Shown: piece after piece, positions 9,150 to 28,068 of the stretch
How positions within the stretch are numbered: position 1 is the first letter of the stretch
Layout of the letters: every line of letters begins with the position of its first letter
Assembly: GCA_022652655.1 (NCBI GenBank)
Contig: JALCRQ010000007.1
Span: 1-48,250, forward strand
Direction: 5' to 3'
DNA from: Oscillibacter sp.
GTDB taxonomy: Bacteria; Bacillota; Clostridia; Oscillospirales; Oscillospiraceae
Length of the DNA stretch: 48,250 nt
Position numbers and translations under genes: made by a program
The notes under the pieces: generated by a model
What the model was told of the DNA's origin: nothing
What the model saw: the letters and a program-made list of their open reading frames with translations, nothing else
Databases searched by the model: none

Positions 9150-10457
9150 TTACTTTTTATACGGTGTCAGCACGGATTTTCCACCCATATAGGGGCGGAG
9201 CACCTCGGGCACCAGGACGGTGCCGTCCGCCTGAAGGTTGTTCTCCAGGAAGGCGATCAGCATCCGGGGCGGCGCCACGCAGGTGTTGTTCAGGGTGTGG
9301 CACAGCTGCATTTTGCCGTTTTCATCCCGGTAGCGGATTTTCAGGCGCCGGGCCTGGGCGTCGCCCAGGTTGGAGCAGGAGCAGACCTCGAAGTATTTCT
9401 TCTGCCGGGGGCTCCAGGCCTCGATGTCGCAGGATTTGCACTTGAGGTCGGCCAGATCGCCGGAGCAGCACTCCAGCTGCCGCACGGGAATGTCCATGCT
9501 GCGGAACAGCTCCACGGAGTAGCGCCAGAGCTTTTCGTACCAGTCCCGGGATTCCTCGGGCCGGCAGACCACGATCATCTCCTGCTTTTCAAACTGGTGA
9601 ATACGGTAGACGCCCCGCTCCTCAATGCCGTGGGAGCCCTTTTCCTTGCGGAAGCAGGGGGAGTAGGAGGTGAGGGTCAGGGGCAGCTCTCCCGCGGGCA
9701 CCACCTGGTCAATGAACCGGCCGATCATGGAATGCTCCGACGTACCGATCAGATAGAGATCCTCGCCTTCGATTTTGTACATCATGGCGTCCATGTCCGT
9801 CTGGGACATGACGCCCTCCACCACGTTGCCGTGGATCATAAAGGGCGGAATACAGTAGGTGAAGCCCTTGTCGATCATAAAGTCCCGGCCGTAGGCCAGC
9901 ACCGCTTCGTGGAGCCGGGCAATGTCGCCCAGCAGGTAGTAAAAGCCGCTGCCGGCCACCCGCCCGGCGGCGTCCATGTCGATGCCCCGGAAGGACTCCA
10001 TGATCTCCGTGTGATAGGGAATCTCAAAATCCGGAACCCGGGGTTCCCCGAAGCGCTGCACCTCCACATTGTGGGTGTCGTCGGGGCCGATGGGGACGGA
10101 GGGGTCGATAATCTGGGGAATAAGCAGCATGCGCGAATGGAGTTCCCCGTCCAGCTCCGTCTCCTTCCTCTCCAGCTCGCTGAGCCGGGCGGCGTTGGCC
10201 GTCACCCGGGCCTTGGCCTCGTCAGCCTCCGCCTGCTTGGAGGGATCCTTCTTGGCCTGTCCCATCAGCATGCCCACCTGCTTGGAGAGGCTGTTCCGGG
10301 CGGAGCGAAGCTGATCCGCCTCCGCAATGGCGGCGCGGCGCTGCTCGTCCAGAGCCAGTACCTCGTCTACCAGGGGCAGCTTGGCGTCCTGAAACTTTTT
10401 CTTGATATTTTCCCGGACGGCGTCGGGATTTTCCCGGATAAATTTCATGTCCAGCAT
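9150..10457 (-). CDS. serS: Seryl-tRNA synthetase
   Basis: 435-residue class II synthetase charging tRNA-Ser (and tRNA-Sec where present). An N-terminal antiparallel coiled-coil arm (about residues 30-110, EALDEQRRAAIAEADQLRSA onward) contacts the tRNA long variable arm. Motif 2 is CFRKEKGSHGIEERGVYRIH followed by QFEKQEM, and the C-terminal NNTCVAPPRMLIAFLEN is typical of motif 3. The start MLDMKFIRENPDAVRENI is the family N-terminus; ATG 10457 has GAGGTG six bases upstream, and an in-frame GTG at 10466 overlaps that site. No T-box was seen upstream; the gap instead holds a parS-like site (10497-10512). Confidence 0.97.
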   Translation of the reverse strand: MLDMKFIRENPDAVRENIKKKFQDAKLPLVDEVLALDEQRRAAIAEADQLRSARNSLSKQVGMLMGQAKKDPSKQAEADEAKARVTANAARLSELERKETELDGELHSRMLLIPQIIDPSVPIGPDDTHNVEVQRFGEPRVPDFEIPYHTEIMESFRGIDMDAAGRVAGSGFYYLLGDIARLHEAVLAYGRDFMIDKGFTYCIPPFMIHGNVVEGVMSQTDMDAMMYKIEGEDLYLIGTSEHSMIGRFIDQVVPAGELPLTLTSYSPCFRKEKGSHGIEERGVYRIHQFEKQEMIVVCRPEESRDWYEKLWRYSVELFRSMDIPVRQLECCSGDLADLKCKSCDIEAWSPRQKKYFEVCSCSNLGDAQARRLKIRYRDENGKMQLCHTLNNTCVAPPRMLIAFLENNLQADGTVLVPEVLRPYMGGKSVLTPYKK

Positions 10458-10496: not shown

Positions 10497-10512
10497 TGTT
10501 TCATGTGAAACA
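10497..10512. other. parS-like site, one mismatch
   Basis: TGTTTCATGTGAAACA differs from the Firmicutes parS consensus TGTTTCACGTGAAACA at one central base. It sits between serS and the coiled-coil gene that follows parB, about 510 bp downstream of the parB coding end. The central change could weaken Spo0J binding, so this may be a low-affinity or degenerating site. Confidence 0.65.
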
Positions 10513-10520
10513 ATCCAAAA

Positions 10521-11048
10521 TTATTTGCTCTCAACCGCCTGGCGCAGCTGCAGATACCGCTGGGCGGGGGACGTGACGCCGCTGTCCGTCTCGGCGGGGA
10601 GCAGCTTGTCCAGACCGGCACCCTCCATGGAGGCAATGGTGGCCTTGCAGCCGCTGTAATCCGCGGTGGCGTACTGCTGTATCAGCGTGTACAGGGCTTC
10701 CAGCGCGTCGGCCCGGCCGGCGGCGGAGTCCGCGGAGGAGGTGGTGTCGGTGAGCTCCTTCTGGAGCTTTTCGTTTTCGGCTTGCAGCGCGTCCAGCTGC
10801 TCCTGGAGCTTCATATTCTTATCCTGGGCCGCCTGTACCTCCTGCAGAGCGGAGACGGAGTGCTGCAGCTTGCCGATCTCCTTGGTGTTGCTGCGCTGGT
10901 GCATGGCAAAGGAGAAAGCAATGAGAATAAAGGCCACCAGAAAGAGGATGATGATATAGACCACCACCGGCTTTTTTCCGCCGGCGGAATCCTGGGGCCC
11001 TCCGGAGGGGGTCTCCTCCGGCTCATTGCTGCGTTTTACCAGTTTCAA
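10521..11048 (-). CDS. Single-pass membrane coiled-coil protein of the par operon
   Basis: 175 residues, family not recognised. It has a polar, Gly/Pro-rich N-terminus (about 25 residues) and one transmembrane helix near residues 27-48 (VVVYIIILFLVAFILIAFSF). A long predicted coiled coil follows at about 55-105 (VQAAQDKNMKLQEQLDAL, QAENEKLQKELTD), then a globular C-terminal region (YTLIQQYATADYSGCKATIA). The TTG start at 11048 has AAAGGAA eight bases upstream and lies inside the end of parB (26-bp overlap), implying translational coupling. By topology the C-terminal coiled coil would be outside the membrane. In Clostridia this position after spo0J is often held by a different small membrane protein (DUF4446), whose motifs I do not see here. 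Function unknown. Confidence 0.8.
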   Translation of the reverse strand: MKLVKRSNEPEETPSGGPQDSAGGKKPVVVYIIILFLVAFILIAFSFAMHQRSNTKEIGKLQHSVSALQEVQAAQDKNMKLQEQLDALQAENEKLQKELTDTTSSADSAAGRADALEALYTLIQQYATADYSGCKATIASMEGAGLDKLLPAETDSGVTSPAQRYLQLRQAVESK

Positions 11049-11973
11049 TGGAATCGTTCCTTTCAGACGGGCTTAAGCTGCCCGATGATGATTGATGACT
11101 GCCCGGGAGCCTGCTTACCCGCAGAAGCGCCAGCGCGTCCAGAAGATCGTTGAGATCCTCCGTCCCGTAGTATTCCAGTTCAATTTTTCCCTTGCGCCTG
11201 CCGGAGACGATTTTCACGCCCCGGCCCAGACGGGAGGCCAGCTGCCGCTGGGCATCGGCGGCGTAGTCCACGCCGCCGGGCTCCTTTTTCGGAGCTTTTT
11301 TGGCGGCGGTCAGCCGCTTCACCAGCGCTTCGGTCTGACGCACGGACAGCCCGCCCGCTAAAACGGATTTGGCGGCGCTCTCCTGCAGGGCGGGGGAGAG
11401 GGGCAGCAGCGCCCGGGCGTGGCCGGCGGAGAGGCTTCCGCTCTCTACCGCCTCCCGAAGCGCGGGGGTCAGCGTCAGCAGCCGCAGGGCGTTGGCCACG
11501 GCGCTGCGGGACTTGCCCACCCGCCGGGCCGCCTCCTCCTGGGTCATGTGATAGGTGGTGATCAGCGTCTGATAGCCGCCGGCTTCCTCCATAGGATTGA
11601 GGTCCTCCCGCTGGAGGTTTTCAATCATGGCCAGCTCTGCGGCTCTGCGGTCGTCGGCCTCCGTGACAATTACCGGCACCTCGCCCAGACCCGCCAGGCG
11701 GGCCGCCCGCCAGCGGCGCTCCCCGGCGATGATCTGGTAATAGCCGGACTGGAGCTTGCGCACGGTGAGGGGCTGGAGGATGCCGTGCTCCCGAATGGAG
11801 TCAGCCAGCGCCTGCAGCGACTCGCCGTCAAACTGCTTGCGGGGCTGGGAGGAGCAGTTTTCAACCTGAGAAATGGGCACGGACAAAACGCCGGTGGACT
11901 CTGTTTTTAAAACGTCGTCGCCCAGCAGGGCACCCAGGCCCCGGCCCAGACCGGAGGGCTTTTTGGATGACAT
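11023..11973 (-). CDS. parB: Chromosome partitioning protein ParB/Spo0J
   Basis: 316-residue CTP-dependent DNA clamp that loads at parS and spreads to organise the origin region. The N-terminal tail SSKKPSGLGRGLGALLGDD carries the LGRGL motif that engages ParA. The CTP-binding ParB/Srx region contains SQPRKQFD, GILQPLTV, AGERRWRAARLAG and ENLQREDLNPMEEA. The helix-turn-helix is TQEEAARRVGKSRSAVANAL. The C-terminal dimerisation part includes KIELEYYGTEDLNDLLDAL. The ATG at 11973 has AAAGGAG nine bases upstream and lies 26 bp after the parA stop. Two parS-like sequences flank the operon. A second ParB-family protein, noc-like, is at 27265-28068. Confidence 0.95.
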   Translation of the reverse strand: MSSKKPSGLGRGLGALLGDDVLKTESTGVLSVPISQVENCSSQPRKQFDGESLQALADSIREHGILQPLTVRKLQSGYYQIIAGERRWRAARLAGLGEVPVIVTEADDRRAAELAMIENLQREDLNPMEEAGGYQTLITTYHMTQEEAARRVGKSRSAVANALRLLTLTPALREAVESGSLSAGHARALLPLSPALQESAAKSVLAGGLSVRQTEALVKRLTAAKKAPKKEPGGVDYAADAQRQLASRLGRGVKIVSGRRKGKIELEYYGTEDLNDLLDALALLRVSRLPGSHQSSSGSLSPSERNDSIETGKTQQ

Positions 11974-11999
11974 GGCAGAGATCTCCTTTCCGGAATCCG

Positions 12000-12755
12000 T
12001 CAACTGTTTTTCCTGAGAAACTCCCGGGCCAGCGCGCCATAGGCCTCGGCGCCCCGGGAGGTACGGTCGTATGTAAAAATTGGTTTGCCGTGGCTGGGCG
12101 CTTCACTGAGGCGCACATTCCGGGGAATGACCGTGGCGTAGACCTTGCCGGGGAAGTAGTGCTTGACCTCCTCGGCCACCTGGAGCGCCAGATTCGTCCG
12201 CCCGTCGAACATGGTCAGCAGCACGCCCTCCAGCTCCAGAGCGGGATTGAGGGAGCGGCGGACGATCCGCACGGTGTTCATAAGGTCGCTGAGCCCCTCC
12301 AGCGCGTAATACTCCCCCTGCACCGGCACCAGAATGGAATCCGCCGCGCACAGGGCGTTGAGGGTCAAAAGCTCCAGGGAGGGGGGGCAGTCGATGAAAA
12401 TAAAATCGTACTCCGGAGACAGCTGATCCAGGGCGCCCTTCAGGAGAAACTCCCGGTGCTCCATGCCGATCAGCTCGATTCCCGCGCCGGCCAGAGCCTT
12501 GTTGGAGGGGAGCACATCGCCGAATTTCGTCTGTACCACGGCGTTTTTCGCGGCGGTTTCTCCGATGAGCACGTCGTAGACGCCCAGGGAGACGGATTTG
12601 TCCACGCCCATGCCGGAGGTGGAGTTTGCCTGAGGGTCGAAATCACAGAGGAGGACGCGCTTTCCCAGCTCCCGCAGCGCCGCCGTCAGGCTGACGCAGG
12701 TCGTGGTCTTGCCGACGCCGCCCTTTTGATTGACAATCGCAACGATTTTTGCCAA
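12000..12755 (-). CDS. parA: Chromosome partitioning ATPase ParA/Soj
   Basis: 251-residue ATPase that binds nucleoid DNA as an ATP dimer and drives origin segregation with ParB. The deviant Walker A is NQKGGVGKTTTCVSLTAAL, the switch is CDFDPQANSTSGMG, and Walker B is YDFIFIDCPPSLELLTLNAL. The C-terminal RNVRLSEAPSHGKPI is highly characteristic of Soj. The start is taken as TTG 12755 (LAKIVAIVNQKGG) because Soj proteins normally begin M-A-K-I; its ribosome-binding site is weak (GCGGGTG), and the open frame upstream lacks conservation. It is followed closely by parB. The perfect parS at 12959-12974 lies about 200 bp upstream. Confidence 0.95.
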   Translation of the reverse strand: MAKIVAIVNQKGGVGKTTTCVSLTAALRELGKRVLLCDFDPQANSTSGMGVDKSVSLGVYDVLIGETAAKNAVVQTKFGDVLPSNKALAGAGIELIGMEHREFLLKGALDQLSPEYDFIFIDCPPSLELLTLNALCAADSILVPVQGEYYALEGLSDLMNTVRIVRRSLNPALELEGVLLTMFDGRTNLALQVAEEVKHYFPGKVYATVIPRNVRLSEAPSHGKPIFTYDRTSRGAEAYGALAREFLRKNS

Positions 12756-12945
12756 ACCGGCACCCGCTTTCTGAGTTTTCCGCCCCGGCGCAGGGGTTCC
12801 CGGGCCGCGGCCGCCCGGGACGGGCAAAAGCCGCCGCCGGAGCGGGGTCTGATAGTACAAAAATCATTATAACAACACGGCCCCGGACATGCAAGGAAAA
12901 ACCGCAAAAAAGGCGGACAGGCGGCAAAGCAGCGCCCAATCCGCG

Positions 12946-12981
12946 AAAAAACGGGGGATGTTTCACGTGAAACATCCCCCG
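12946..12981 (-). terminator. Intrinsic terminator of the GH13 gene, formed by parS
   Basis: A 30-bp perfect palindrome (12952-12981) with five G/C pairs at each flank can fold as a hairpin of about 13 bp around a 4-base loop. On the minus strand it is immediately followed by six T (12946-12951). It starts 5 bp after the stop codon of the GH13 gene. The centre of the stem is the parS site. Confidence 0.8.
12959..12974. other. parS centromere site, perfect consensus
   Basis: TGTTTCACGTGAAACA is an exact match to the B. subtilis-type parS consensus bound by Spo0J. It lies 204 bp upstream of the parA start, in the gap between parA and the GH13 gene, and is the core of a longer perfect palindrome. 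A perfect parS next to parAB places the window near the replication origin (inference). Confidence 0.93.
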
Positions 12982-12986
12982 AAGGG

Positions 12987-14861
12987 TCATTCGGACAGGA
13001 GAAATCCGGTTCTGGGCGGCAGCGTCAGCGCCAAAATCCCGTTTTCCGGGGCAAACGCTTCGCCGGAGAGCAGCTCCCGGGCGGAGGCGCCCGCCCAGGG
13101 AAGCTCCAGGGAGAGGGGGGCGTCCCCGGCATTGAGTGCCGCGGCGGTGCGCTCAGCGCCCTCCTCCCGGAGAAAGGCCAGACCCGGGCCGGCGGCGTAC
13201 AGCCAGCGCAGGGAGCCCCGCTGCAGGGAGGGACGGGTGTTCCGCAGCCGTGCCAGCAGCCGAAACCGCTCCCGGAGGAGGGAATCCTCCCGGCCCCAGG
13301 GGTATGTCCCCCGGTTGAGGGGGTCCTCAAAGCCCTGCATCCCGGCCTCGTCGCCGTAGAGCACGGTGGGGGAGCCGGGGAAGGCAAAGAGCAGAACGGC
13401 CCCCGCCGCCAGCAGCTGTCGGCCCCGGGTCAGCTCCGGCGCGTCCAGCCGGTACGCGGCCCGGCCGGCCCGGTCGTCGGGAACCGCCCGGGCGCCCAGC
13501 ACGGTGAGAATCCGCGGCGTGTCGTGGGTGCCCAAAAAATTCATGGCGGAGAAGAACGCGGAGCGGGGATAATGCTCCCGCAGCGTCTCCATGGCCTCGC
13601 AGAAAGCGGCGGCGTCGCCGCCCCGGAGATAGGCGATGGCCGCCGTGCGGAAGGGATAGTTCATCAGCCCGTGAACCTCCCGGCCCAGCAGGTATTTCCG
13701 CCGGAGGGTGTAGGCGATTTTGGTGGTTCCGTCCTCCCAGACTTCTCCCATCAGCAGGGAACCGGGTTTCGTCTCGTCCATGGCCCGGCGGATCCCGGCA
13801 ATAAAATTGTCGGGCAGCTCATCGGCCACGTCCAGCCGCCAGCCGTCCGCCCCCGCCCGAAGCCAGCGGCGCACCACGGAGTTTTCATCGCCGAAGATAA
13901 AGGCGCGGTAGTTCTCATTCCCCTCGTCCACCGCGGGCAGCGTGTCGATGCCCCACCAGCAGTCGTAGCGGTCGGGCCAGTGGGAAAAACGGTACCAGGG
14001 ATAAAAGCGGCTCTCCCGGCTCTGGGCCGCGCCCGGCTCCGGGAAACGGCCCCGGGCGTTAAAATACACGCTGTCTGAGCCGGTGTGGTTGAAAACGCCG
14101 TCCAGCATCACGCGCATGTTCCGGCGGTGGGCCTCGCTGCACAGGGCCCGGAAATCCGCCTCGCTGCCCAGCATGGGGTCGATTCGGAGGTAGTCAGCGG
14201 TGTTGTAGCGGTGATTGGAGACGGAGAGAAAAATGGGATTGAGATACAGGGTGGTGACGCCCAGGGCCCGGAGCTCGTCCAGCTTGGACGCAATTCCGGC
14301 CAGGGAGCCGCCGAAAAAGTCCCGGCAGCGAAAGGTCCCGTCCGGGTCGGGCTGCCAGTCCGGCTCCTCGTCCCAGCGGTCATGGACCCGGCGGCTGCCC
14401 GGCATCCCGGCGGGATCCGGCACCGCCAGACGGCAGAAGCGGTCGGGAAAAATCTGATAGGTCATCCCGGCGCCAAACCAGCCGGGCGTCTTTTCCGCGG
14501 AATCGTAAACGGTTAACTGCCAATCCTCCTCCGAGCCGCCGCTGCGGTAGCCGGAGCGGTCCAGGGTGCAGCCGGAGCCGTCGTCCCGGCTCAGCCGGAA
14601 GGAATACCAGCACAGCTCCGGCGTCTGGGGAGCGGAAAAGGACACGGCGAAGCACGTCCGGTCGCCCTCGGGCCCCCGGCAGGTCAGCGCCAGCTCCCGG
14701 CTGACGCCGGAGAACTCCATCCGGAGCGCCAGGGTGCAGCCGGTAAAGCCTTCGGAGGTCAGGGGCCGCACCCGCAGAAGAACGGCGCCGCCGCAGGGGA
14801 CGGCGCCGTAGGGGGTTTTGCAGTATTCGCAGCGGGAATCAAAGACAAACGGTTCACTCAT
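12987..14861 (-). CDS. GH13 alpha-glucan hydrolase (neopullulanase/cyclomaltodextrinase type)
   Basis: 624 residues, no signal peptide, so probably cytoplasmic. An N-terminal beta-domain of about 130 residues (CBM34-like) precedes a GH13 TIM barrel. Conserved regions are YQIFPDRFC, VMLDGVFNHTG, GWRLDVADEL (nucleophile Asp about 344), LMGEVWEDG (acid/base Glu about 373) and FLGTHDTPRI (Asp about 447); PTVLYGDEAGMQGF and a C-terminal beta-domain follow. The N-terminal domain and the HNHRYNTADYL-type barrel entry point to enzymes acting on maltooligosaccharides, cyclodextrins or pullulan. The ATG at 14861 (MSEPFVFDSRCEYC) has AAGGAA six bases upstream. It sits between parAB and the mre cluster with no other carbohydrate genes nearby. 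Substrate is inference. Confidence 0.9.
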   Translation of the reverse strand: MSEPFVFDSRCEYCKTPYGAVPCGGAVLLRVRPLTSEGFTGCTLALRMEFSGVSRELALTCRGPEGDRTCFAVSFSAPQTPELCWYSFRLSRDDGSGCTLDRSGYRSGGSEEDWQLTVYDSAEKTPGWFGAGMTYQIFPDRFCRLAVPDPAGMPGSRRVHDRWDEEPDWQPDPDGTFRCRDFFGGSLAGIASKLDELRALGVTTLYLNPIFLSVSNHRYNTADYLRIDPMLGSEADFRALCSEAHRRNMRVMLDGVFNHTGSDSVYFNARGRFPEPGAAQSRESRFYPWYRFSHWPDRYDCWWGIDTLPAVDEGNENYRAFIFGDENSVVRRWLRAGADGWRLDVADELPDNFIAGIRRAMDETKPGSLLMGEVWEDGTTKIAYTLRRKYLLGREVHGLMNYPFRTAAIAYLRGGDAAAFCEAMETLREHYPRSAFFSAMNFLGTHDTPRILTVLGARAVPDDRAGRAAYRLDAPELTRGRQLLAAGAVLLFAFPGSPTVLYGDEAGMQGFEDPLNRGTYPWGREDSLLRERFRLLARLRNTRPSLQRGSLRWLYAAGPGLAFLREEGAERTAAALNAGDAPLSLELPWAGASARELLSGEAFAPENGILALTLPPRTGFLLSE

Positions 14862-14935
14862 GGACAATTCCTTCCCCAAAGCGTGAAAGACGCGCCGCCG
14901 GACGGGTTCCGGCGGATTCAAAAAGGAGCGTCTCC

Positions 14936-17017
14936 TTATTGCAGCAGCTGATTTTCGCCGGTGATCACGGCGGTGCCCACCTGATCGGCGGTAAAATAGG
15001 CGTTGAGAATGTCCACGGCGGTGGAGGCCAGAGACGCTCCGGTTCCGCCCTTTTCGATGGCGATGGCCAGGGCGATCTGGGGGTCGTCGTAGGGGGCGAA
15101 GCAGACAAACACGCCGTTGTTGACCTTCTGGCTGGAGACCTGGGCGGTGCCGGTTTTGGCGCCGGCCTCCACCACGCAGGAGCGGAAGTAGGAGGTAAGG
15201 GCGCCGGTGGTGGTCAGGTTGTGCATGCCCTGCTTCACCGCGCTGAGCGTGGATTCCTTGATGTTCAGATTGTTGCTGGGCTTGGGGGACTCGGCGTACA
15301 CCACCTGGGTGTTGTCGGCGTTTTTGACGGTTTTCAGCAGATGGGCGTCGTAATGCTTGCCGCCGGACACCAGCGTGGCGATGTAGTTGGCCAGCTGGAG
15401 GGGGGTGGCGGTGTAGCTGGCCTGGCCGAAGGCGGCCCAGGGAGCCAGATCCTGCCCGGCATCCTGCGTCGCCAGCGTGCCGGCGCGGTCGCCGATCTCA
15501 ATGCCGGTGTGCTTGCCCAGACCAAAGGCGGCGGCATACTCGTTGAGCTTGTCGAGGCCCAGGCGGTAGCCCACCTCGCCGAAGAAATAGTTGCAGGAGT
15601 TGGTGATGGCCTGTGTGACGTTGAGAGAGCCGTGGCCGGAGTGATTCCAGCAGTAGAAGCCCCACCGCTGGCCGTCTTTTTTGCTGGTGGGATAAACCCA
15701 GTAGCCGGTGTCCCGGATGGTGGTGGAGGTGGAGATGACGCCCTCCTCCAGTCCCGCCACGGCAGTGCAGGGCTTAAAGGTGGAGCCGGGGGCGTAGGTG
15801 CCCTGGGTGGCGCGGTTGAGGAAGGGCTTGGCGGGGTCGGTGCTGAGCGCCGCGTAGTTGGACTTGTACAGCGCGGGGTCGTAGGTGGGGTAGGAGGCCA
15901 GGGACAGAATATCCCCGGTGCCCACCTGAATGACGGCCGCGCCGGCGCCCCGGATAATGCCGTCCTTGGCGGTCATGCGGGAGACGGTGGCGCCCAGGGC
16001 GTCCTCCACCGCCTTTTGCAGGCGGAGATCAATGGTGATCGCCACCGTGTCGCCGGGCTTGGGCTCCACGGAATAGAGCTCGCTGGTGACCTTGCCCTCT
16101 GCGTTGGTGGAGACCACGCGTTTGCCGTCGGTGCCCCGGAGATACTCCTCAAAGGCCTTCTCCACGCCGGTTTTGCCCACCAGCTCATTGAGAGAGTAGC
16201 CTTTTTTCCGGTACTCGTCGGCCTCCACCTCAAAGATGTTGCCCACGGTGCCCAGGATGTGGGCCGCGCAGGAGGTGTTGTACTCCCGGGCGGAGGAGGA
16301 CGTCACCTTGACTCCCTGGTACCGCCCGTCGTTGACCAGGGAGATGAGGGAGGAGCTCACGTCCTCCACAATGACGTAGGGGGTGGTGTTGATCAGCTCC
16401 CGCACGCTGAGCTCATAGAGGATGCCCAGCACCGCCCGGGCGTCCGCGTCCGGCCAGTCGGCGGGGATGGAAAATTCTTTGCGCATATCGGCCATCAAAA
16501 CGTCCGCCGTCAGTCCGGCGGCGATGAGAGTGGATTCATCCACGTCCCGGTAGGAGGCGTCCGCGGCCACCAGCTTCATCCGCTTTTGGAGAAAGGTGAC
16601 GAAGCGGCGCTTCTGCGTGGTGGAGGTCTGATCGTAGGTATAGCTCCACGGGGCGGCGGAGCCCACCGGCAGATTGTCCTGCCAGGGGAGATTCTGCTGG
16701 CGGCAGAGGCGGATAATCCGCGCGATTGCCTCGTTTTCGTCGTCCTCCTTGCCCAGGAGACTGGGATCGAAGGTCAGATTGTAGGTCTGCCGGTTGGAGA
16801 CCAGCACGGTGCCGCTGCGGTCCGTGATGACGCCCCGGGAGGCCTCCACCGTCTGCTGGGTGGTAATCGTCCGGACGGACTGCTCTAGGTACTCCTTGCC
16901 GTGGACGACCTGGGTGTTGTAGAGCAGCCCCGTATAGCAGAGCAGGACGGCCAGCAGAAAGCCGCCCAGCAGGCGGAGCCGTCTGCGGCTGATGCGTTTG
17001 GGTTCACGTTCGTCCAT
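14936..17017 (-). CDS. mrdA: Penicillin-binding protein 2 (elongasome transpeptidase)
   Basis: 693-residue class B PBP that crosslinks peptidoglycan during sidewall elongation. A short cytoplasmic N-terminus (MDEREPKRISRRRLRLL) is followed by one transmembrane helix (GGFLLAVLLCYTGLLY) and the PBP dimerisation domain, including SRGVITDRSGTVLVSNR. The transpeptidase domain has SxxK at STFK (Ser about 412, Lys about 415), SxN at NSCNYFF, and KTG at AKTGTAQ (Lys about 621). The ATG at 17017 has GGAGG eight bases upstream. It is the last gene of maf - mreC - mreD - mrdA and begins 26 bp after mreD. The partner SEDS protein RodA is not in the window. Confidence 0.96.
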   Translation of the reverse strand: MDEREPKRISRRRLRLLGGFLLAVLLCYTGLLYNTQVVHGKEYLEQSVRTITTQQTVEASRGVITDRSGTVLVSNRQTYNLTFDPSLLGKEDDENEAIARIIRLCRQQNLPWQDNLPVGSAAPWSYTYDQTSTTQKRRFVTFLQKRMKLVAADASYRDVDESTLIAAGLTADVLMADMRKEFSIPADWPDADARAVLGILYELSVRELINTTPYVIVEDVSSSLISLVNDGRYQGVKVTSSSAREYNTSCAAHILGTVGNIFEVEADEYRKKGYSLNELVGKTGVEKAFEEYLRGTDGKRVVSTNAEGKVTSELYSVEPKPGDTVAITIDLRLQKAVEDALGATVSRMTAKDGIIRGAGAAVIQVGTGDILSLASYPTYDPALYKSNYAALSTDPAKPFLNRATQGTYAPGSTFKPCTAVAGLEEGVISTSTTIRDTGYWVYPTSKKDGQRWGFYCWNHSGHGSLNVTQAITNSCNYFFGEVGYRLGLDKLNEYAAAFGLGKHTGIEIGDRAGTLATQDAGQDLAPWAAFGQASYTATPLQLANYIATLVSGGKHYDAHLLKTVKNADNTQVVYAESPKPSNNLNIKESTLSAVKQGMHNLTTTGALTSYFRSCVVEAGAKTGTAQVSSQKVNNGVFVCFAPYDDPQIALAIAIEKGGTGASLASTAVDILNAYFTADQVGTAVITGENQLLQ

Positions 17018-17043
17018 AAAAAATTCCTCCTTGGCAGCGGCGC

Positions 17044-17556
17044 TCAGTCGTAGAAATGGCACTTGCGGCTGACCGCCCGGAACAGCAAAAAGACGGGAAG
17101 GACAAAGGGAAGGGTCACGCCGGTCTCCTTCAGGGCCACCAGGGCGGCCGTCCCGAAGGCGCGCTGTCCGGTGAGCGCCAGAATCAGCAGGTGAAAGGCG
17201 TCCGTCAGCACGAAGGCGGCGGCGGAGGCGGCCAGGGCGCAGAGGACGCCGGCGGGAAGCCAGCTCTCCGCCATCAGTCCGGCGCACAGTCCCGCCGCGG
17301 GAAAAATCAGCGTGTAGAAGCAGGGAATGGGGCCGCCCAGGGCCAGATCGCAGGCCACGCCCAGCACCAGCGCGTACGCGGAGCCCGCCACGGGCCCCTC
17401 GTACATCCCCACCAGCGCCGTCAGCGCCGGATAGAGAAACGGCATGACGCCCCACAGCAGCAGAAATTGCAGCACAAAGCCCTGGAACAGCAGGGCCGCC
17501 AGCGTGGCGGCTCCGTACAGGGCCCATTTAATCATGGTTTCAGATCGTCCGATCAA
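17044..17556 (-). CDS. mreD: Rod shape-determining membrane protein MreD
   Basis: 170-residue multi-pass membrane protein of the elongasome, linking MreC to the wall synthases. It has about five hydrophobic helices (ALYGAATLAALLFQGFVLQF, PVAGSAYALVLGVACDLAL, PAAGLCAGLMAESW and two more). Sequence conservation in this family is poor, so the call rests on topology, size and position between mreC and mrdA. A TTG start at 17556 is preferred: GGGAGG is nine bases upstream of it, whereas the first ATG (17535) has no site at the right distance. Function follows from the cluster. Confidence 0.88.
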   Translation of the reverse strand: MIGRSETMIKWALYGAATLAALLFQGFVLQFLLLWGVMPFLYPALTALVGMYEGPVAGSAYALVLGVACDLALGGPIPCFYTLIFPAAGLCAGLMAESWLPAGVLCALAASAAAFVLTDAFHLLILALTGQRAFGTAALVALKETGVTLPFVLPVFLLFRAVSRKCHFYD

Positions 17557-17600
17557 GAGAAGCAGCCTCCCTTTTGACGCCCAAAGCGGCCGGGCGGAGT

Positions 17601-18440
17601 TTATCCGGCGGCCGTGAAGGATTTGATGATAAAGACCTCGCTGAGATTGGCCAGATCGGCCTCCGGCGTCAGCGTGGCGTACTCCGTGGCGCCGGCGTCG
17701 TCCAGCTGCACGGCATCCACCGAGCCGATGACCAGGCCCGAGGGATAGTAGCCGCCCAGGCCGGAGGTAACCACCAGGTCGCCGTTGAGCAGGCTGCTCT
17801 TGGCGGGCAGATAGCTGAGCTTCAGCTTGCCCTGGGGCATGAGGTTGAAATCCCCCTGGGCCACGCCGATGTCGCTGGTGCGGAACACCTGGGCGCCCAG
17901 GGAGGCGTCGGTGTCCAGCACCGTCAGAACGGTGCACCAGTTAAGCCCCACCCGGGTCACAATGCCCACCAGGTAGCCCTCCTCGGTGATGACGCAGTCG
18001 TTGACCTTCACGTCCTGGGAGGTGCCCTTGTTCAGCGTCAGGGAGGAGGTCCAGTTGGAGCTGGAGCGCTCCGTCACCGCGGCGGTTTCGTACCGGAACT
18101 CCGGCCGCTTTTCCTGCAGGTTCAGCAGCTTGTGCAGCCGGTCGTTCTCATCGCTGGCGGTCTGCCCCTGCCGGACCTGAGACTCCATTTCGGCGATCTT
18201 CTTTTTCAGCGCCTTGTTTTCCTTTTTCAGCTCCTGATAGTCCTGATAGTAGGCCCATTTGTCGCCGATCCAGTCCGAAACGGCGGTATAGGCCGTCCGG
18301 AAGGGGGAGGCCACCACGCCGGTGAGATTGGCCAGCGGGGAGGAGGTATTGCTGAAATAGGACAGTACGGCCATGGCCACCGCGATGACCGCGGCGGCAA
18401 AAAGGACCCACAGTCCGTGCCGTTTCAGAAAATTTTTCAA
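17601..18440 (-). CDS. mreC: Rod shape-determining protein MreC
   Basis: 279-residue bitopic membrane protein that scaffolds the elongation machinery and activates PBP2. The short cytoplasmic N-terminus KNFLKRHG is followed by one transmembrane helix (LWVLFAAAVIAVAMAVLSYF). A coiled coil spans about residues 65-110 (YQELKKENKALKKKIAEMES). The extracellular beta-barrel pair holds LNKGTSQDVKVNDCVITEEG, YLVGIVTRVG, LVVTSGLGGYYPSGLVIG. The TTG at 18440 is chosen because it gives the family start K-N-F-L-K and has GAGGGG six bases upstream; TTG 18458 is an alternative. It follows maf by 10 bp. mreB is not in the window. Confidence 0.94.
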   Translation of the reverse strand: MKNFLKRHGLWVLFAAAVIAVAMAVLSYFSNTSSPLANLTGVVASPFRTAYTAVSDWIGDKWAYYQDYQELKKENKALKKKIAEMESQVRQGQTASDENDRLHKLLNLQEKRPEFRYETAAVTERSSSNWTSSLTLNKGTSQDVKVNDCVITEEGYLVGIVTRVGLNWCTVLTVLDTDASLGAQVFRTSDIGVAQGDFNLMPQGKLKLSYLPAKSSLLNGDLVVTSGLGGYYPSGLVIGSVDAVQLDDAGATEYATLTPEADLANLSEVFIIKSFTAAG

Positions 18441-18450
18441 AGCGAACCCC

Positions 18451-19029
18451 TCAATCAAAAAACGTGACGCCGAACTCCGCCAGCATCCGGGAAAGACGGA
18501 GCACCGGCAGGCCCATGACGTTGTAAAAATCCCCCCGGATTCCCTCCACCAGAAGGGAGCCCAGGCCCTGAACGCCGTAGGCCCCGGCCTTGTCCATGGG
18601 CTCGCCCGTCCGGATGTAGCCCCGCAGCTCCCGCTCCGACGCGGGACGGAAGCGCACCTCGGTGGACTCGCTCTGGGTCAGCGCCCGGTCGCCCTGGCGG
18701 ACAGTGACGCCGGTGCAGACGGTGTGGCAGCGGCCCTGGAGGGCCGTCAGCATCCGCAGCGCGTCCGCCTGGTCCCGGGGCTTGCCCAGCCGGGCGCCGT
18801 CCAGAAAGACCATGGTGTCCGCGGTGATGAGAATCTCCTCCGCCGAGCAGAGGGCGCGGCCGGCGTCGGCCTTCTCCCGGGAGATGTGCTCCACCGCCTG
18901 CCGGGGCGTCAGTCCCGGAGGACAGGTCTCCTCCGTCTGCGGCACCCGGATCTCAAAGTCCTCCAGCCCCATCCGGCGGAGCAGCTCCCGCCGCCGGGGC
19001 GAGCCGGAGCACAGTACGAGCTTTGCCAT
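18451..19029 (-). CDS. maf: Maf-family nucleotide pyrophosphatase
   Basis: 192 residues. Maf proteins hydrolyse dTTP, UTP or modified nucleoside triphosphates to monophosphates and have been linked to septum control. The N-terminal LVLCSGSPRRRELLRRMGL is the family signature. Further motifs are SREKADAG, ITADTMVFLDG with the metal-binding Asp, LGKPRDQADALRML, and DKAGAYGVQGLGSLLVEGI. GAGAGG lies eight bases before the ATG at 19029. It heads the maf - mreC - mreD - mrdA series, a common arrangement in Firmicutes. Substrate subtype is not decidable by eye. Confidence 0.95.
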   Translation of the reverse strand: MAKLVLCSGSPRRRELLRRMGLEDFEIRVPQTEETCPPGLTPRQAVEHISREKADAGRALCSAEEILITADTMVFLDGARLGKPRDQADALRMLTALQGRCHTVCTGVTVRQGDRALTQSESTEVRFRPASERELRGYIRTGEPMDKAGAYGVQGLGSLLVEGIRGDFYNVMGLPVLRLSRMLAEFGVTFFD

Positions 19030-19128
19030 TTTTTCAACCTCTCAAACACATCGCGGCAGATACGGACGCAAGTAAAATACCTTTACAACAGATGCCGTCA
19101 GAGCCGCGGCGGAAATTTCCCTGTTTCG

Positions 19129-19560
19129 TCACCGGCCGGTGGAGCCGAAGCCGCCCCGGTCGGGGCTGTCCAGATGCTCCACCCGGCGGAAGGTCAGGCG
19201 GGGCTGGTTTTGCATAATACGGAACTGGCAGATCCGGGCGCCCTTCTCAATCACCGCGTCCCGGGTGGCGTAGGCTGGGAAAAACCACTGATCTCCGTCG
19301 CCCCGGTAGGTGCAGTCCACCACCCCCATGGAGTTGGTCTGCAGCAGCCCGTAATTTTTAAAGGTGGAGCTGCGGGGCACCAGATGGGCCTCCCAGCCCT
19401 CGGGCAGGGCAATGGCCACACCCAGCGGAATCAGCCGAAACTCTCCGGCCTTCAGAACTGCCGTCTCCGCGGCATAGAGATCAATCCAGTCCGACTTGCC
19501 TTCCACATACTGAAGCTCCGGCAGGTCGGGGGAAAAATATTTTACTTCTAGGGTTTCCAT
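19129..19560 (-). CDS. dut: dUTP diphosphatase
   Basis: 143-residue trimeric dUTPase converting dUTP to dUMP and pyrophosphate, keeping uracil out of DNA and feeding dTMP synthesis. Visible motifs are DLYAAETAVLKAGEFRLIP (motif 1), VPRSSTFKNYGLLQTN (motif 2), GVVDCTYRGDGDQW (motif 3) and the C-terminal RGGFGSTGR arm (motif 5) that closes over the active site. Motif 2 has PRSS in place of the more usual GRSG. The ATG at 19560 has AGGAG five bases upstream. The 95 bp before it are unusually AT-rich and contain a TATAAT, but no -35 at proper spacing was found. Confidence 0.96.
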   Translation of the reverse strand: METLEVKYFSPDLPELQYVEGKSDWIDLYAAETAVLKAGEFRLIPLGVAIALPEGWEAHLVPRSSTFKNYGLLQTNSMGVVDCTYRGDGDQWFFPAYATRDAVIEKGARICQFRIMQNQPRLTFRRVEHLDSPDRGGFGSTGR

Positions 19561-19655
19561 ACGCACTCCTGTGATTATTATTTGTATTATATATTGTAAA
19601 TATTACTATTAGGAATCAAAATTCAGACCCCGGACTGGGAAATCCGGCAGCGAGG

Positions 19656-21761
19656 TCACTCCACGCCCCGCTGGTAAAGCCCCCGGGTAAAGGGGCCCCG
19701 GGGAGCGGTTTCGTCCCGGTACGCCCGGAAAACCCGGACGCACTCCTCCGGGGATTCGGAGGTAAACCGAAGCCGGGCAAAGGCCAGGCCCAGGGAGCTC
19801 CAGCTCCGGCGCCGGTCGCCCAGATAGAGGGGCAGGCTGTTCTCAATCTCCGTGCGGTGGCCGTAGGCCGGCAGCAGGGGAAAGCGGGCCCCGGTGCGGT
19901 CGCAGAGATAATGGCTCCCGGCGCAGCGTCCGGCGGCGGGAATCTCGGGGCCTCCGGCGCCGCAGGCGCAGCCCAGGGCGTTTTGGATGAGGCAGTTCTC
20001 CGTGATCATCAGCGGCAGGCGGCCGTAGACGATGGCCTCGGCGGGGAGGAGCTTTGCAAGATCCCGGATCTGGGCAAAGCGCAGCTCGAAGGAGACGCAG
20101 GCGGAGGAGAGCCCCGCCTCCGCCAGAAATTCCAGGGAGCGGGAGTTAAAGACGTTGAGTCCGAAATCCCCGTACAGGGCCAGGCCGGTGCCCCGGACCA
20201 GGGGCAGGTGACCCAGATTACCCACCGCGGCGGCGCGGACGCCCAGCGTCTGCGCCCGTTCCAGCGCTCGGCGCAGGGCCGGCTCGTCGCCGTCCCGCCA
20301 GACCCGGGGGAGAACGGCGCACCATGTCCCGCCGAATTGCGGCAGGGCCGGCACAGACGCCAGAGCGGAAAGCGGCAGAAAAACCCGAGCGGGGCCCAGG
20401 GCCAGCAGCTCCGGCGTGATCTGAAAGAAAGAGGCGGCGGAAACGGTCCACTCCGGCGCGGCGGCGGAGCAGTCCGCCTCCGGCAGGGGAGGGACGGGGT
20501 TTTCCCGGCGGGGCGGCACGGCGCAGCGGGCGTCGCTCAGGGCGCTGAGCGCTTCCCGGCGCAGGGCGTTCACCGCGGCGGCGGAGAGGGAGAGCCCCTC
20601 CTCCGCCGTCACCTCCGGGTGGGGGCAGAAATAGGGGGTGCCCCCGGTTTTGGAGAGCCGGGCGGCCAGCTCCTCCCCGGTGACGGCCCGGGTGCGGGCA
20701 GGTTCGGGTGCGGGGCCGGATACCGTGACGGAGCGGCCGCAGCCGTCGTCGGCGGTGAGCTCCGCCGGGCGGCCCTGCCGGACAGAGAGGGAGAGGCGCA
20801 CAGGCACGGTGGGAGGGCAGTCGGTTTCATAGGCGGCCCGGGCGGCGGCGAAAAGTGCCTTGGGCTCCGGCGCGTCCTCCGGCCGGGAGCCGAACATGCC
20901 CGGTCCCTTTTTGCCCCGCCAGTACCAGTCGGTAAAGCCCTGCCGGGAAAAGGCCTGTTCCAGCGCGGCGGTTTCCTCCCCGGTGGGGAGGCGGCGCTCC
21001 CGCAGGAGGCGGGCATAGATGCTCGTCACCACCGCCACATATTCCGGGCGCTTCATCCGGCCCTCCAGCTTGAGACAGGCGGCGCCCGTCTCCTCCATCT
21101 GGCGGAGGGAACAGGCCAGGCAGGCGTCCTTCAGGGACAGGGGATGGCCGCCTTTGGCGGGGCCGTCGATCCCGTAGGGCAGACGGCAGGGCTGGGCGCA
21201 TTTGCCCCGGTTGCCGGAGCGTCCGCCGATCAGCGCGCTCATGGCGCACTGGCCGGAGTAGCACATGCACAGGGCGCCGTGGCCGAACAGCTCGATCTCC
21301 GCGCCGCAGTCCCGGGCGGCGGCCGCGTCCTCCCGGGAGCACTCCCGGGCCAGCACAATCCGCCGGCAGCCCATGGCCGCAGCCTCCCGGGCGCCGCCGG
21401 AGGTAAAGATGCTCATCTGGGTGCTGGCGTGAAGCGGCAGGTCGGGCAGCGTCCGGCGCAGCAGGGTAAAAAGGCCCCAGTCCTGCACCAGAACCGCGTC
21501 CGCGCCCAAGTCGGACGCCCGCCGCGCCGTCTCCAGCGCCGTGGGCAGCTCCCGGTCGGAGAGCAGCGTGTTCAGCGTCAGATAGACCCGGACGCCCCGC
21601 TCCCGGCAAAAGCGCAGAGCCTGCGCAAATTCCTCATCCGTAAAATTTTTGGCGTTTCGCCGGGCATTGAACTCCCCCCAGCCCAGATAGACCGCGTCTG
21701 CGCCGCAGGTCACGGCGGCGCGGAGCGATTCGGGGGAACCGGCGGGAGAGAGAAGCTCCAT
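19656..21761 (-). CDS. Peptidase U32 family protein (RlhA/YhbU-like)
   Basis: 701-residue cytoplasmic protein. The N-terminal U32 domain begins MELLSPAGSPESLRAAVTCG and includes GADAVYLGWGEFNARRNAKN, ADAVLVQDWG and LHASTQMSIFTSGG. The cysteine cluster runs CMCYSGQCAMS through GNRGKCAQPCR, with further Cys downstream (KDACLACSLRQM). This arrangement is that of the large U32 proteins, whose E. coli member RlhA hydroxylates 23S rRNA; true protease activity is doubtful. The C-terminal 300 residues include a second barrel-like segment (YGRLPLMITENCLIQ). Its ATG overlaps the zapA stop by one base (TGATG), so the two are translationally coupled. Substrate unknown. Confidence 0.9.
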   Translation of the reverse strand: MELLSPAGSPESLRAAVTCGADAVYLGWGEFNARRNAKNFTDEEFAQALRFCRERGVRVYLTLNTLLSDRELPTALETARRASDLGADAVLVQDWGLFTLLRRTLPDLPLHASTQMSIFTSGGAREAAAMGCRRIVLARECSREDAAAARDCGAEIELFGHGALCMCYSGQCAMSALIGGRSGNRGKCAQPCRLPYGIDGPAKGGHPLSLKDACLACSLRQMEETGAACLKLEGRMKRPEYVAVVTSIYARLLRERRLPTGEETAALEQAFSRQGFTDWYWRGKKGPGMFGSRPEDAPEPKALFAAARAAYETDCPPTVPVRLSLSVRQGRPAELTADDGCGRSVTVSGPAPEPARTRAVTGEELAARLSKTGGTPYFCPHPEVTAEEGLSLSAAAVNALRREALSALSDARCAVPPRRENPVPPLPEADCSAAAPEWTVSAASFFQITPELLALGPARVFLPLSALASVPALPQFGGTWCAVLPRVWRDGDEPALRRALERAQTLGVRAAAVGNLGHLPLVRGTGLALYGDFGLNVFNSRSLEFLAEAGLSSACVSFELRFAQIRDLAKLLPAEAIVYGRLPLMITENCLIQNALGCACGAGGPEIPAAGRCAGSHYLCDRTGARFPLLPAYGHRTEIENSLPLYLGDRRRSWSSLGLAFARLRFTSESPEECVRVFRAYRDETAPRGPFTRGLYQRGVE

Positions 21762-22114
21762 CAATGATTGCTGCCCCCGCGGTTTCCGCCGTGGCCGGCG
21801 TCCAGCTTCTGCTGGAGGCGGAACACCTCGCGCTTCAGCTCGCTGACCTCGTTCTGGGCCTTCCCGGCCTCGTCCAGATACTGCTTGATCTGGCCCCGCA
21901 GCTGCTCGGACGACGATTGCTCCTTAAAGAGATCGTCGGCGATGTTGGCGGCGGTGAGCACCGCGGCGTCGCTGCGCCCCACGTGGGAGCCGCTGAGAAT
22001 TTCCTGCATTTTCTGATCCACATAGGAGCCGATTTTCTGCATATAGGCGGCATTTTCGTCCGTGACGAAGGTGTAGTCCTCTCCGCAGATATTGACGATC
22101 ACGCGATTTTCCAT
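21761..22114 (-). CDS. zapA: Cell division protein ZapA
   Basis: 117-residue protein that crosslinks FtsZ filaments at the division ring. The N-terminal domain has VIVNICGEDYTFVTDENAAY and IGSYVDQKMQEI. ADDLFKEQSSSEQLRGQIKQ leads into a C-terminal coiled coil (NEVSELKREVFRLQQKLDAG). The C-terminus is Gly/Asn-rich. The ATG at 22114 has GGAGGG seven bases upstream; the frame stays open further up without conservation. zapA followed by a U32 gene is a common Firmicutes pair. It lies divergent to the DnaD-like gene across a repeat-containing gap. Confidence 0.93.
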   Translation of the reverse strand: MENRVIVNICGEDYTFVTDENAAYMQKIGSYVDQKMQEILSGSHVGRSDAAVLTAANIADDLFKEQSSSEQLRGQIKQYLDEAGKAQNEVSELKREVFRLQQKLDAGHGGNRGGSNH

Positions 22115-22244
22115 AGTCTGGCCCTCCTTTTTATCTTTCCCGCCCGGCGGCCGGGCAAATCCGATTCTCTTTTTGATCCGGCGGAGGCCCGCCGGGGTGA
22201 AGGCTGCGGCACAGTCTGCCGAAAGGGAGTTTCCTCTTTTCGGC

Positions 22245-22414
22245 CGCACCGCGCTTTGCGGCTATTGTACCATAAATTGCCCGCAATTTATGGTACTCCG
22301 GTATCCACGCAAGCTGCCCCTGAAAGAGGCGGGGCGGCGGACGATTGCAATGCGCCAAAGCGCACCGCGCTTTGCTGCGCAGGCACAACAGCCGCTTTGC
22401 GGCTATTGTACCAC
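22245..22414. repeat. Intergenic palindromic repeat element, copy 1 (composite)
   Basis: In the 455-bp divergent gap, the 14-mer GCACCGCGCTTTGC occurs at 22246 and 22362 (period 116), and CTTTGCGGCTATTGTACCA occurs at 22254 and 22395. Between them is a perfect hairpin, TACCATAAATTG (22268-22279) with its complement (22284-22295). The sequence GCGGCTATTGTACCACAG is close to GCGGCTATTATAGCACAG at 30987 and to the complement of the start of the 48133-48250 repeat. The rest of this gap holds only the promoter at 22509-22537. Confidence 0.8.
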
Positions 22415-27264: not shown

Positions 27265-28068
27265 CTATGTACGGTTCTGCTTGGGAATCCGGATGGTCAG
27301 CAGGATGGCGTCGTCCGTCTCCTCCCGGCCGCTCTCCGCCGCCACTCCCGCATCGCGGATCAGCCGCAGCCCCCGGTCCACGCTGTTGAGAAACAGGCGC
27401 ACGTCCTTGATGACGTAGGTTCGGCGCATCCGGGCCCGGGTCTGCTGGATCGTCCGCAGCCGCTGGTCGATGTAGGCCTCCGTCTGGGCCACGTTGAGAC
27501 CGGCGGCCACCACATGGCGCAGCACCGCCCGGCGCTCGTCCTCGCTCTCCAGACGGAGCAGGGCCCGGGCGTGGCGCTCGGAGAGGCGGTTGTTCAGCAG
27601 AACGGAGGCACACTCCGGCGAGAGCCGCAGCAGCCGCAGCTTGTTGGCCACCGCCGAGGGCGACCGGCCCAGCTTGGCGGCCAGCGCCTCCTGACTGATG
27701 CCGGTTTTGCGCACGAAGGCGGCCAGCGCCTCCGCCTCCTCCAAATAGTGCAGATCCTGGCGCTGCAGATTTTCCAGCAGCGCCAGCAGGGCGGAGTCGC
27801 TGTCGCTGACCTCCGCCGCAAGACAGGGAACCGTGGAGAGACCGGCCATCTTGGCCGCCCGCAGACGCCGTTCCCCGGCCACCAGCTCCCAGCCCAGCTC
27901 CGATCTGCGCACCGTCAGCGGCTGCAGAATCCCGTGCTGGCGGATGGAATCCGCCAGGCTTCGGAGCGCGTCGGCGTCAAACACACGCCGGGGCTGCATG
28001 GGATTGGGGACCAGCTCTTCCACCGGGAGCTGGAGCACTTCCCGCCGACTGGGCGGCTGTTTCTCCAT
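27265..28068 (-). CDS. noc: Nucleoid occlusion-type ParB-family protein
   Basis: 267-residue ParB-family CTP-binding DNA protein. It has VPNPMQPRRVFD, GILQPLTVRR, AGERRLRAAKMAG and ENLQRQDLHYLEEAEAL. The helix-turn-helix is ISQEALAAKLGRSPSAVANK. The C-terminal part (IKDVRLFLNSVDRGLRLIRD and LLTIRIPK) is the Noc-type C-terminus rather than that of Spo0J. It lacks the LGRGL ParA-interaction motif. The N-terminus also lacks the Phe-rich amphipathic membrane-binding leader seen in B. subtilis Noc, starting directly with MEKQPPSRREVLQLPVEEL. A GGGGGTGAT site precedes ATG 28068. The Noc assignment over a second ParB is likely but not certain. No Noc-binding-site consensus was spotted nearby. Confidence 0.85.
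   Translation of the reverse strand: MEKQPPSRREVLQLPVEELVPNPMQPRRVFDADALRSLADSIRQHGILQPLTVRRSELGWELVAGERRLRAAKMAGLSTVPCLAAEVSDSDSALLALLENLQRQDLHYLEEAEALAAFVRKTGISQEALAAKLGRSPSAVANKLRLLRLSPECASVLLNNRLSERHARALLRLESEDERRAVLRHVVAAGLNVAQTEAYIDQRLRTIQQTRARMRRTYVIKDVRLFLNSVDRGLRLIRDAGVAAESGREETDDAILLTIRIPKQNRT

Follow-up and report, generated by a model that had tools for sequence, protein, structure and literature searches.

The parS site ahead of the parAB genes of Oscillibacter sp. lies in a 48,250-nt stretch of contig JALCRQ010000007.1 (assembly GCA_022652655.1), which we refer to as the window. Here the 16-bp parS palindrome is the centre of a longer hairpin, followed by a T-tract and placed just after the stop codon of a codirectional gene. 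Comparison with relatives makes it very probable that this is a bifunctional element, serving as parS in the form of double-stranded DNA and, once transcribed, as the intrinsic terminator of the upstream codirectional genes. These comparisons lend good support to selection, at the RNA level, for a parS-based terminator. A preliminary description of the window had already proposed that one sequence could have both uses, and the proposal now draws strong support from its recurrence in relatives, the compensated changes in its arms, its codirectional slot and an excess of T-runs over A-runs beyond parS.

A parS site within a predicted terminator hairpin

Read directly from the minus strand of the window, the element is CGGGGGA-TGTTTCACGTGAAACA-TCCCCCG-TTTTTT-CGCG. 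The core matches the 16-bp parS consensus given in PMC7022226, TGTTNCACGTGAAACA, with 0 mismatches; the arms extend it to a perfect 30-bp palindrome (12952-12981), and exactly six T abut the stem with no gap in the transcribed sense, while 5 bp separate the stem from the stop codon of the GH13 gene (12987-12989). The preliminary description had reported these four features, and all are exact. Folded as RNA, the element gives a 13-bp hairpin closed by a loop of 4 nt (-23.5 kcal/mol, z -6.2). For the RNA of the 16-nt core by itself the value is -3.9 kcal/mol, showing that the palindrome is weak on its own and that a terminator stem arises through the arms. A T-run is absent on the plus-strand side, and the predicted terminator is therefore one-directional. 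A scan for terminator-like structures between 9000 and 18000 found 17, compared to 8.2 in shuffled sequences, and the parS element was its first entry. The same interval gave 0 matches to Rfam families at gathering score, which rules out a described Rfam RNA family as the identity of the element.

At up to 3 mismatches the window holds two parS sites, against 0.02 expected from dinucleotide shuffles. The same two are the only ones found at up to 2 mismatches in the 1.8-Mb assembly, where the core described here is the sole perfect parS; since the assembly is 94% complete, further parS could be missing.

Recurrence upstream of parA in relatives

We collected the parAB loci of 80 relatives through a ParB search and added the window, obtaining 81 loci. 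The relatives are labelled Oscillospiraceae, its genera, Ruminococcaceae, or just Clostridia or Clostridiales. At up to one mismatch these loci contain 197 parS: 121 upstream of parA (in 75 loci), 59 downstream of parB and 17 elsewhere. A parS was scored as a terminator if it had an arm of at least 4 bp, at least 3 GC, and at least 5 T out of 8. Codirectional parS-terminators were present at 40/121 sites of the upstream slot, in 38/75 loci, a proportion that is not a family-wide rate since the relatives are the best 80 of at least 488 confirmed. Permutation of the right flanks gave a mean of 1.0 site and a maximum of 6 in 1000 trials. Tightening the T requirement to at least 6 left 34 sites in 33 loci. 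Cultured carriers of the element include Oscillibacter valericigenes An860 (L047) and Oscillibacter sp. MSJ-31 (L108). In the slot downstream of parB, 0/59 parS qualified, ruling out a general property of parS and pointing to a terminator function that would be layered on parS in one slot; outside both slots the count was 3/17.

Arm lengths in the upstream slot are two-humped, with 0-1 pair at 66/121 sites and 7-11 pairs at 33/121, the pattern that a required stem would be expected to produce. When the first upstream parS of each locus was chosen by position alone, arms of at least 7 bp were found in 34/75 (null 0.6). Where an upstream frame was called (39 sites), 25 stems start at most 20 nt past its stop codon. 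For the relatives, we assigned upstream genes by visual inspection of frame ends: in many loci these end like the GH13 protein of the window, and in L086, L088, L092 and L095 like its penicillin-binding protein.

A scan blind to parS (stem of at least 6 bp, at least 4 GC, at least 6 T out of 8) found a terminator in 41/75 upstream regions, compared to 0.8% of shuffled regions. A whole parS lies inside the terminator in 35/75 (34 as the sole terminator and one accompanied by a separate one), and the remaining 6/75 have a separate terminator only. Of the terminator loci, 25 have more than one parS in the upstream slot. The terminator is the GH13-side site alone in 18 of them (17 carrying two sites, one carrying three), the far site alone in 5, and both in 2. 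Another parS lies past the terminator in the 18 GH13-side cases. The window and 12 other terminator loci have a single parS in this slot.

Some traits of parS arrangement were recorded along the way. Paired parS between the upstream stop and the parAB promoter are common (for instance in L032, L033, L037 and L047), and 36/46 neighbouring pairs are 33-59 bp apart. The last upstream parS often lies 50-120 bp ahead of the -10 element, a spacing that would suit autoregulation. The variant CGTTTCACGTGAAACA makes up 13/59 sites downstream of parB and 1/121 upstream, and the 28 variants of the upstream slot include 12 changes of the last base and 12 of the two central letters.

Conservation of arm pairing

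We quantified pairing in a position-chosen set with one site per locus (75 sites, 73 distinct). Arm cells are paired in 68.8% of cases, compared to 43.3% after shuffling and 34-45% when partners were slid by 1-3 columns as a control, and the covariation score is 0.597 versus 0.212 (standard deviation 0.020) in shuffled arms. All seven arm pairs change on both sides in an alignment of 40 hairpin sites (one from each of the 38 terminator loci, with L066 and L092 added), which leans towards pairing because its sites were picked as hairpins. As an example, the loci L033 and L037, whose ParBs are 97% identical, differ by one compensated arm pair out of six positions, and L049 and L054, with ParBs 90% identical, show compensated differences at six of seven arm positions. 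Arms are identical in three of the four closest ParB pairs.

Past the first pair there is no conservation of arm letters, and what is conserved is the pairing. The preliminary description named relatives with a conserved parS and no conserved arms as evidence against its proposal; taken literally, this is what approximately half of the loci, as well as the downstream slot, show. The element persists when loci are thinned by ParB identity, with 31/59 loci below 90%, 17/33 below 80% and 5/13 below 70%. On a ParB tree its presence changes state at least 15 times, a figure that mixes gains and losses and comes from a quick tree of 78/81 rows (L060, L075 and L109 were left out, their ParB reading being too short) with two long-branch warnings.

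Strand bias in wider genome samples

We compared, in wider genome samples, T-runs located 4-12 nt beyond parS with mirror-image A-runs. In 200 genomes of the family, the T-run occurs in 27 and the A-run in 7, and arms of at least 5 bp accompany 18/26 unique T sites versus 0/7 A sites. This sample includes the window and shares 3/26 T and 1/7 A sites with the first locus set; the other 23/26 T sites are absent from that set, 17 of them with such arms. In the loci fetched for the genus, T-runs number 8 and A-runs 2 among 63 unique perfect parS. A DNA-binding dyad leaves this excess of T over A unexplained, and a terminator accounts for it.

Gene neighbourhood

Along the minus strand come, in this order, mreC, penicillin-binding protein gene, GH13 gene, palindrome, T6, extended -10 element, parA, parB, a small open reading frame (ORF), second parS and serS (Table 1). 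The mreC, penicillin-binding protein and GH13 genes would form one transcript. The extended -10 element is perfect in 41/75 loci and in 0/75 shuffled ones, the control being a single mononucleotide shuffle per locus. No NCBIfam model scored above its cut-off for the parA product. For the ParB of the window the top NCBIfam score was nucleoid_noc (240.9 bits), below the cut-off of 315 for this model.

Table 1. Features of the parS-terminator region in the window.
Feature	Position	Strand	Basis or remark
parS core, perfect 16-bp palindrome TGTTTCACGTGAAACA	12959-12974	none	0 mismatches
5' arm of terminator stem, CGGGGGA on minus strand	12975-12981	-	direct read, terminator scan, RNA fold
3' arm of terminator stem, TCCCCCG on minus strand	12952-12958	-	direct read, scan, fold; compensated changes in relatives
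T6 tract after stem	12946-12951	-	direct read, terminator scan
GH13 (alpha-amylase family) gene	12987-14921	-	ORF; Pfam PF00128
Penicillin-binding protein gene (transpeptidase and PBP dimerisation domain), upstream of GH13	14936-17527	-	Pfam
mreC, upstream of penicillin-binding protein gene	17601-18458	-	Pfam
Perfect extended -10 element TGTTATAAT, probable parAB promoter, downstream of parS-terminator	12866-12874	-	8/8 match
parA, probable TTG start at 12755	12000-12755	-	ORF; Pfam AAA_31
parB, ParB_N and HTH_ParB	11023-12003	-	Pfam; NCBIfam parB_part above cut-off
Second parS, one central mismatch	10497-10512	none	between small ORF (10521-11048) and serS

The second parS has 5-bp arms with one unpaired base on each side of the core (-12.1 kcal/mol) and no T-tract. 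Two more ParB-family proteins were observed. One lies in the window (27265-28068, minus strand; ParB_N and HTH_ParB), where the scanned neighbours are VanW-type, PrmA and DegV and not ParA; the other is on contig C45 at 9329-9862 (L219). These may be Noc-like, yet every match to the Noc-site consensus in the window has at least 3 mismatches. Ahead of the centromere, the minus-strand interval 14936-22249 includes zapA, a U32 peptidase gene, maf, mreC and the penicillin-binding protein gene; parAB is directly preceded by codirectional genes of division and of the wall.

Discussion

Our comparisons suggest how both uses would combine. As DNA, the element would be a parS of the chromosomal ParABS system, a nucleation site to which the ParB encoded just downstream would bind. 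As RNA, parS would provide the upper stem and the loop, the lineage-specific GC arms the lower stem, and the T-tract would come next. The upstream genes (mreC, penicillin-binding protein and GH13) would be transcribed through parS; as the stem and the U-tract emerge polymerase would stop, and parAB would start from its own promoter just beyond the terminator. The benefit would be that the upstream transcript stops short of the parAB promoter, and of further parS where these are present. The cause that we favour is economy, in which an inverted repeat that is kept anyway would be reused as a stem, together with insulation of parAB and further parS. Polymerase has to cross all of this parS for the hairpin to form, so that shielding is limited to elements further downstream. 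Of the insulation originally proposed for parS and parA, that of this parS can hence be dismissed; insulation is possible for the downstream parAB promoter and for further parS.

Several observations weigh against a parS-terminator. An upstream-slot parS-terminator is lacking in 37/75 loci, and the parS-blind scan finds no terminator in 34/75 regions, implying that not every locus terminates transcription there, or that some do so by other than intrinsic means. Five upstream parS have arms of at least 5 bp and no forward T-tract (13 bp in L080, 9 in L083 and in L100, 6 in L086, and 5 in L108), L080 and L100 scoring as terminators on the reverse strand. In the downstream slot, 4/59 parS have 5-bp arms and no T-tract, versus 0.2 in the null. 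Such arms suggest that some arm formation may have another cause. Within arms, G-U and A-C combinations number 5 and 3, which are few counts. As a separate observation, the sites L080 3985, L083 2301 and L100 69, with perfect arms of 9-13 bp and no forward T-tract, all fall in a single four-row subclade of the ParB tree.

The weakness of the signal beyond the family also counts against the terminator. In a phylum sample of 299 genomes the contrast is smaller, with T-runs in 24 and A-runs in 12. Counting each site once in the loci fetched, arms of at least 5 bp are present at 8/25 T versus 3/15 A sites (the window is counted among the 25, and the T site G358:C66, which has no locus, is left out). 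Requiring at least 2 GC pairs in such arms leaves 6/25 T versus 1/15 A, and this A site, L210, lies by eye in an apparent parB frame. In an order sample, scored for T-runs only, 9/147 genomes have a match, and the 135 that lie outside the family contribute 6 of the 9; arms of at least 5 bp, AT-rich, are found in one of six newly read sites, and L136, read earlier, has 10. The smaller contrast in the phylum and its fewer arms suggest that the fusion is chiefly of this family and scattered elsewhere (for instance L136, L148 and L150).

We considered other origins for the arms. Accidental pairing of GC-rich flanks has practically no likelihood left: one 7-bp match among many sites is not impossible, yet flank permutation (1.0 versus 40 sites) and covariation rule it out. 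The arms could instead lengthen the DNA dyad read by ParB, with the hairpin as a by-product. In both slots, A/T is the most frequent pair directly next to the core (57/121 upstream and 21/59 downstream), as such an extended site would have it, and 5-bp arms do exist at 4/59 downstream sites. Arms do not exceed 3 bp at the other 55/59, however, the arm letters are unconserved beyond the first pair, and a dyad explains neither a T-tract on one strand nor the T-over-A bias, making this a very improbable explanation. In its stricter form, a conserved arm sequence acting as a longer ParB motif, it is ruled out by the arm alignments and by covariation. An extruded palindrome, or cruciform, serving segregation or replication at the DNA level would be compatible with the 9-13 bp arms that lack a forward T-tract in L080, L083 and L100; it leaves unexplained the T-tract, the strand bias, the proximity to stop codons (25/39 within 20 nt) and the scarcity of arms downstream, and we deem it extremely improbable.

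Two further proposals involve ParB in the termination itself. In one of them, a ParB roadblock or pause at parS and the hairpin would jointly stop transcription, to an extent that varies with ParB occupancy. The ParB site is indeed the stem that polymerase must cross, and according to PMC7053999 the spreading of ParB can be blocked or attenuated both by proteins bound to DNA and by polymerases, so that both machines meet. No sequence feature requires ParB, though, the hairpin is strong by itself (-23.5 kcal/mol), and in 6/75 regions the sole terminator is a separate one that lacks parS; joint termination is therefore unlikely. The other is a regulatory junction, in which ParB loading and polymerase would compete for the same base pairs: ParB occupancy would tune termination of the wall genes (mreC, penicillin-binding protein and GH13), transcription would clear or reload ParB, and wall growth would be coupled to segregation. 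We see this as a speculative and unlikely extension of a bifunctional parS-terminator.

Both components are familiar. With other chromosomal ParABS (Soj/Spo0J) systems the element shares the identical 16-bp consensus, a place beside parAB, and a ParB with N-terminal and HTH domains, whereas in the texts consulted no parS is said to belong to a terminator; the review PMC7022226 has, in its main text, no word starting with "terminat". With intrinsic (Rho-independent) terminators it shares a GC-rich stem, a short loop, a T-tract and a position right after a stop codon, the difference being that a protein-binding DNA site here fixes the upper stem and the loop and only the lower stem varies. In the literature consulted, the closest conceptual parallel is that of Neisseria, where DNA uptake sequences are used as terminator inverted repeats (PMC2397512); there, paired copies form the stem, genome-wide, while here it is one self-palindromic centromere site with variable arms, chiefly at one locus. 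ParB sites embedded in transcription signals are also reported in Mycobacterium bovis BCG, where a putative parS overlaps the -10 of the gidB promoter (PMC2346475), and in Pseudomonas aeruginosa, where ParB represses promoters adjoining parS3 and parS4 (PMC5521831). Those overlaps concern initiation, whereas here the site itself would encode an RNA stop signal. The partition genes of plasmid RA3 are followed by a terminator as well as by parS, and the part of PMC7414963 available does not state that they coincide.

It is the recurrent fusion of parS and an intrinsic terminator that would be new, although novelty is unproven: among the matches listed from the full-text literature searched, to which subscription journals mostly do not belong, no title or opening of an abstract describes a parS inside an intrinsic terminator. 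Nor is a parS-terminator described in the accessible parts of PMC7414963, PMC10516426, PMC7022226, PMC5815017, PMC7053999, PMC5521831, PMC2397512, PMC2346475, PMC10954446, PMC12779278 and PMC4949633. Searching for parS alone, or for terminators alone, catches half of the element.

In approximately half of the sampled loci of this gut family, a bacterial centromere site is apparently under two simultaneous selections, one acting on DNA, for ParB, and one on RNA, for termination. The many lineage-specific arm sequences are natural replicates of this situation. It becomes testable what consequences follow when, at every expression of the upstream genes, polymerase must cross a ParB loading site, and whether or not the position of parS is shaped by transcription.
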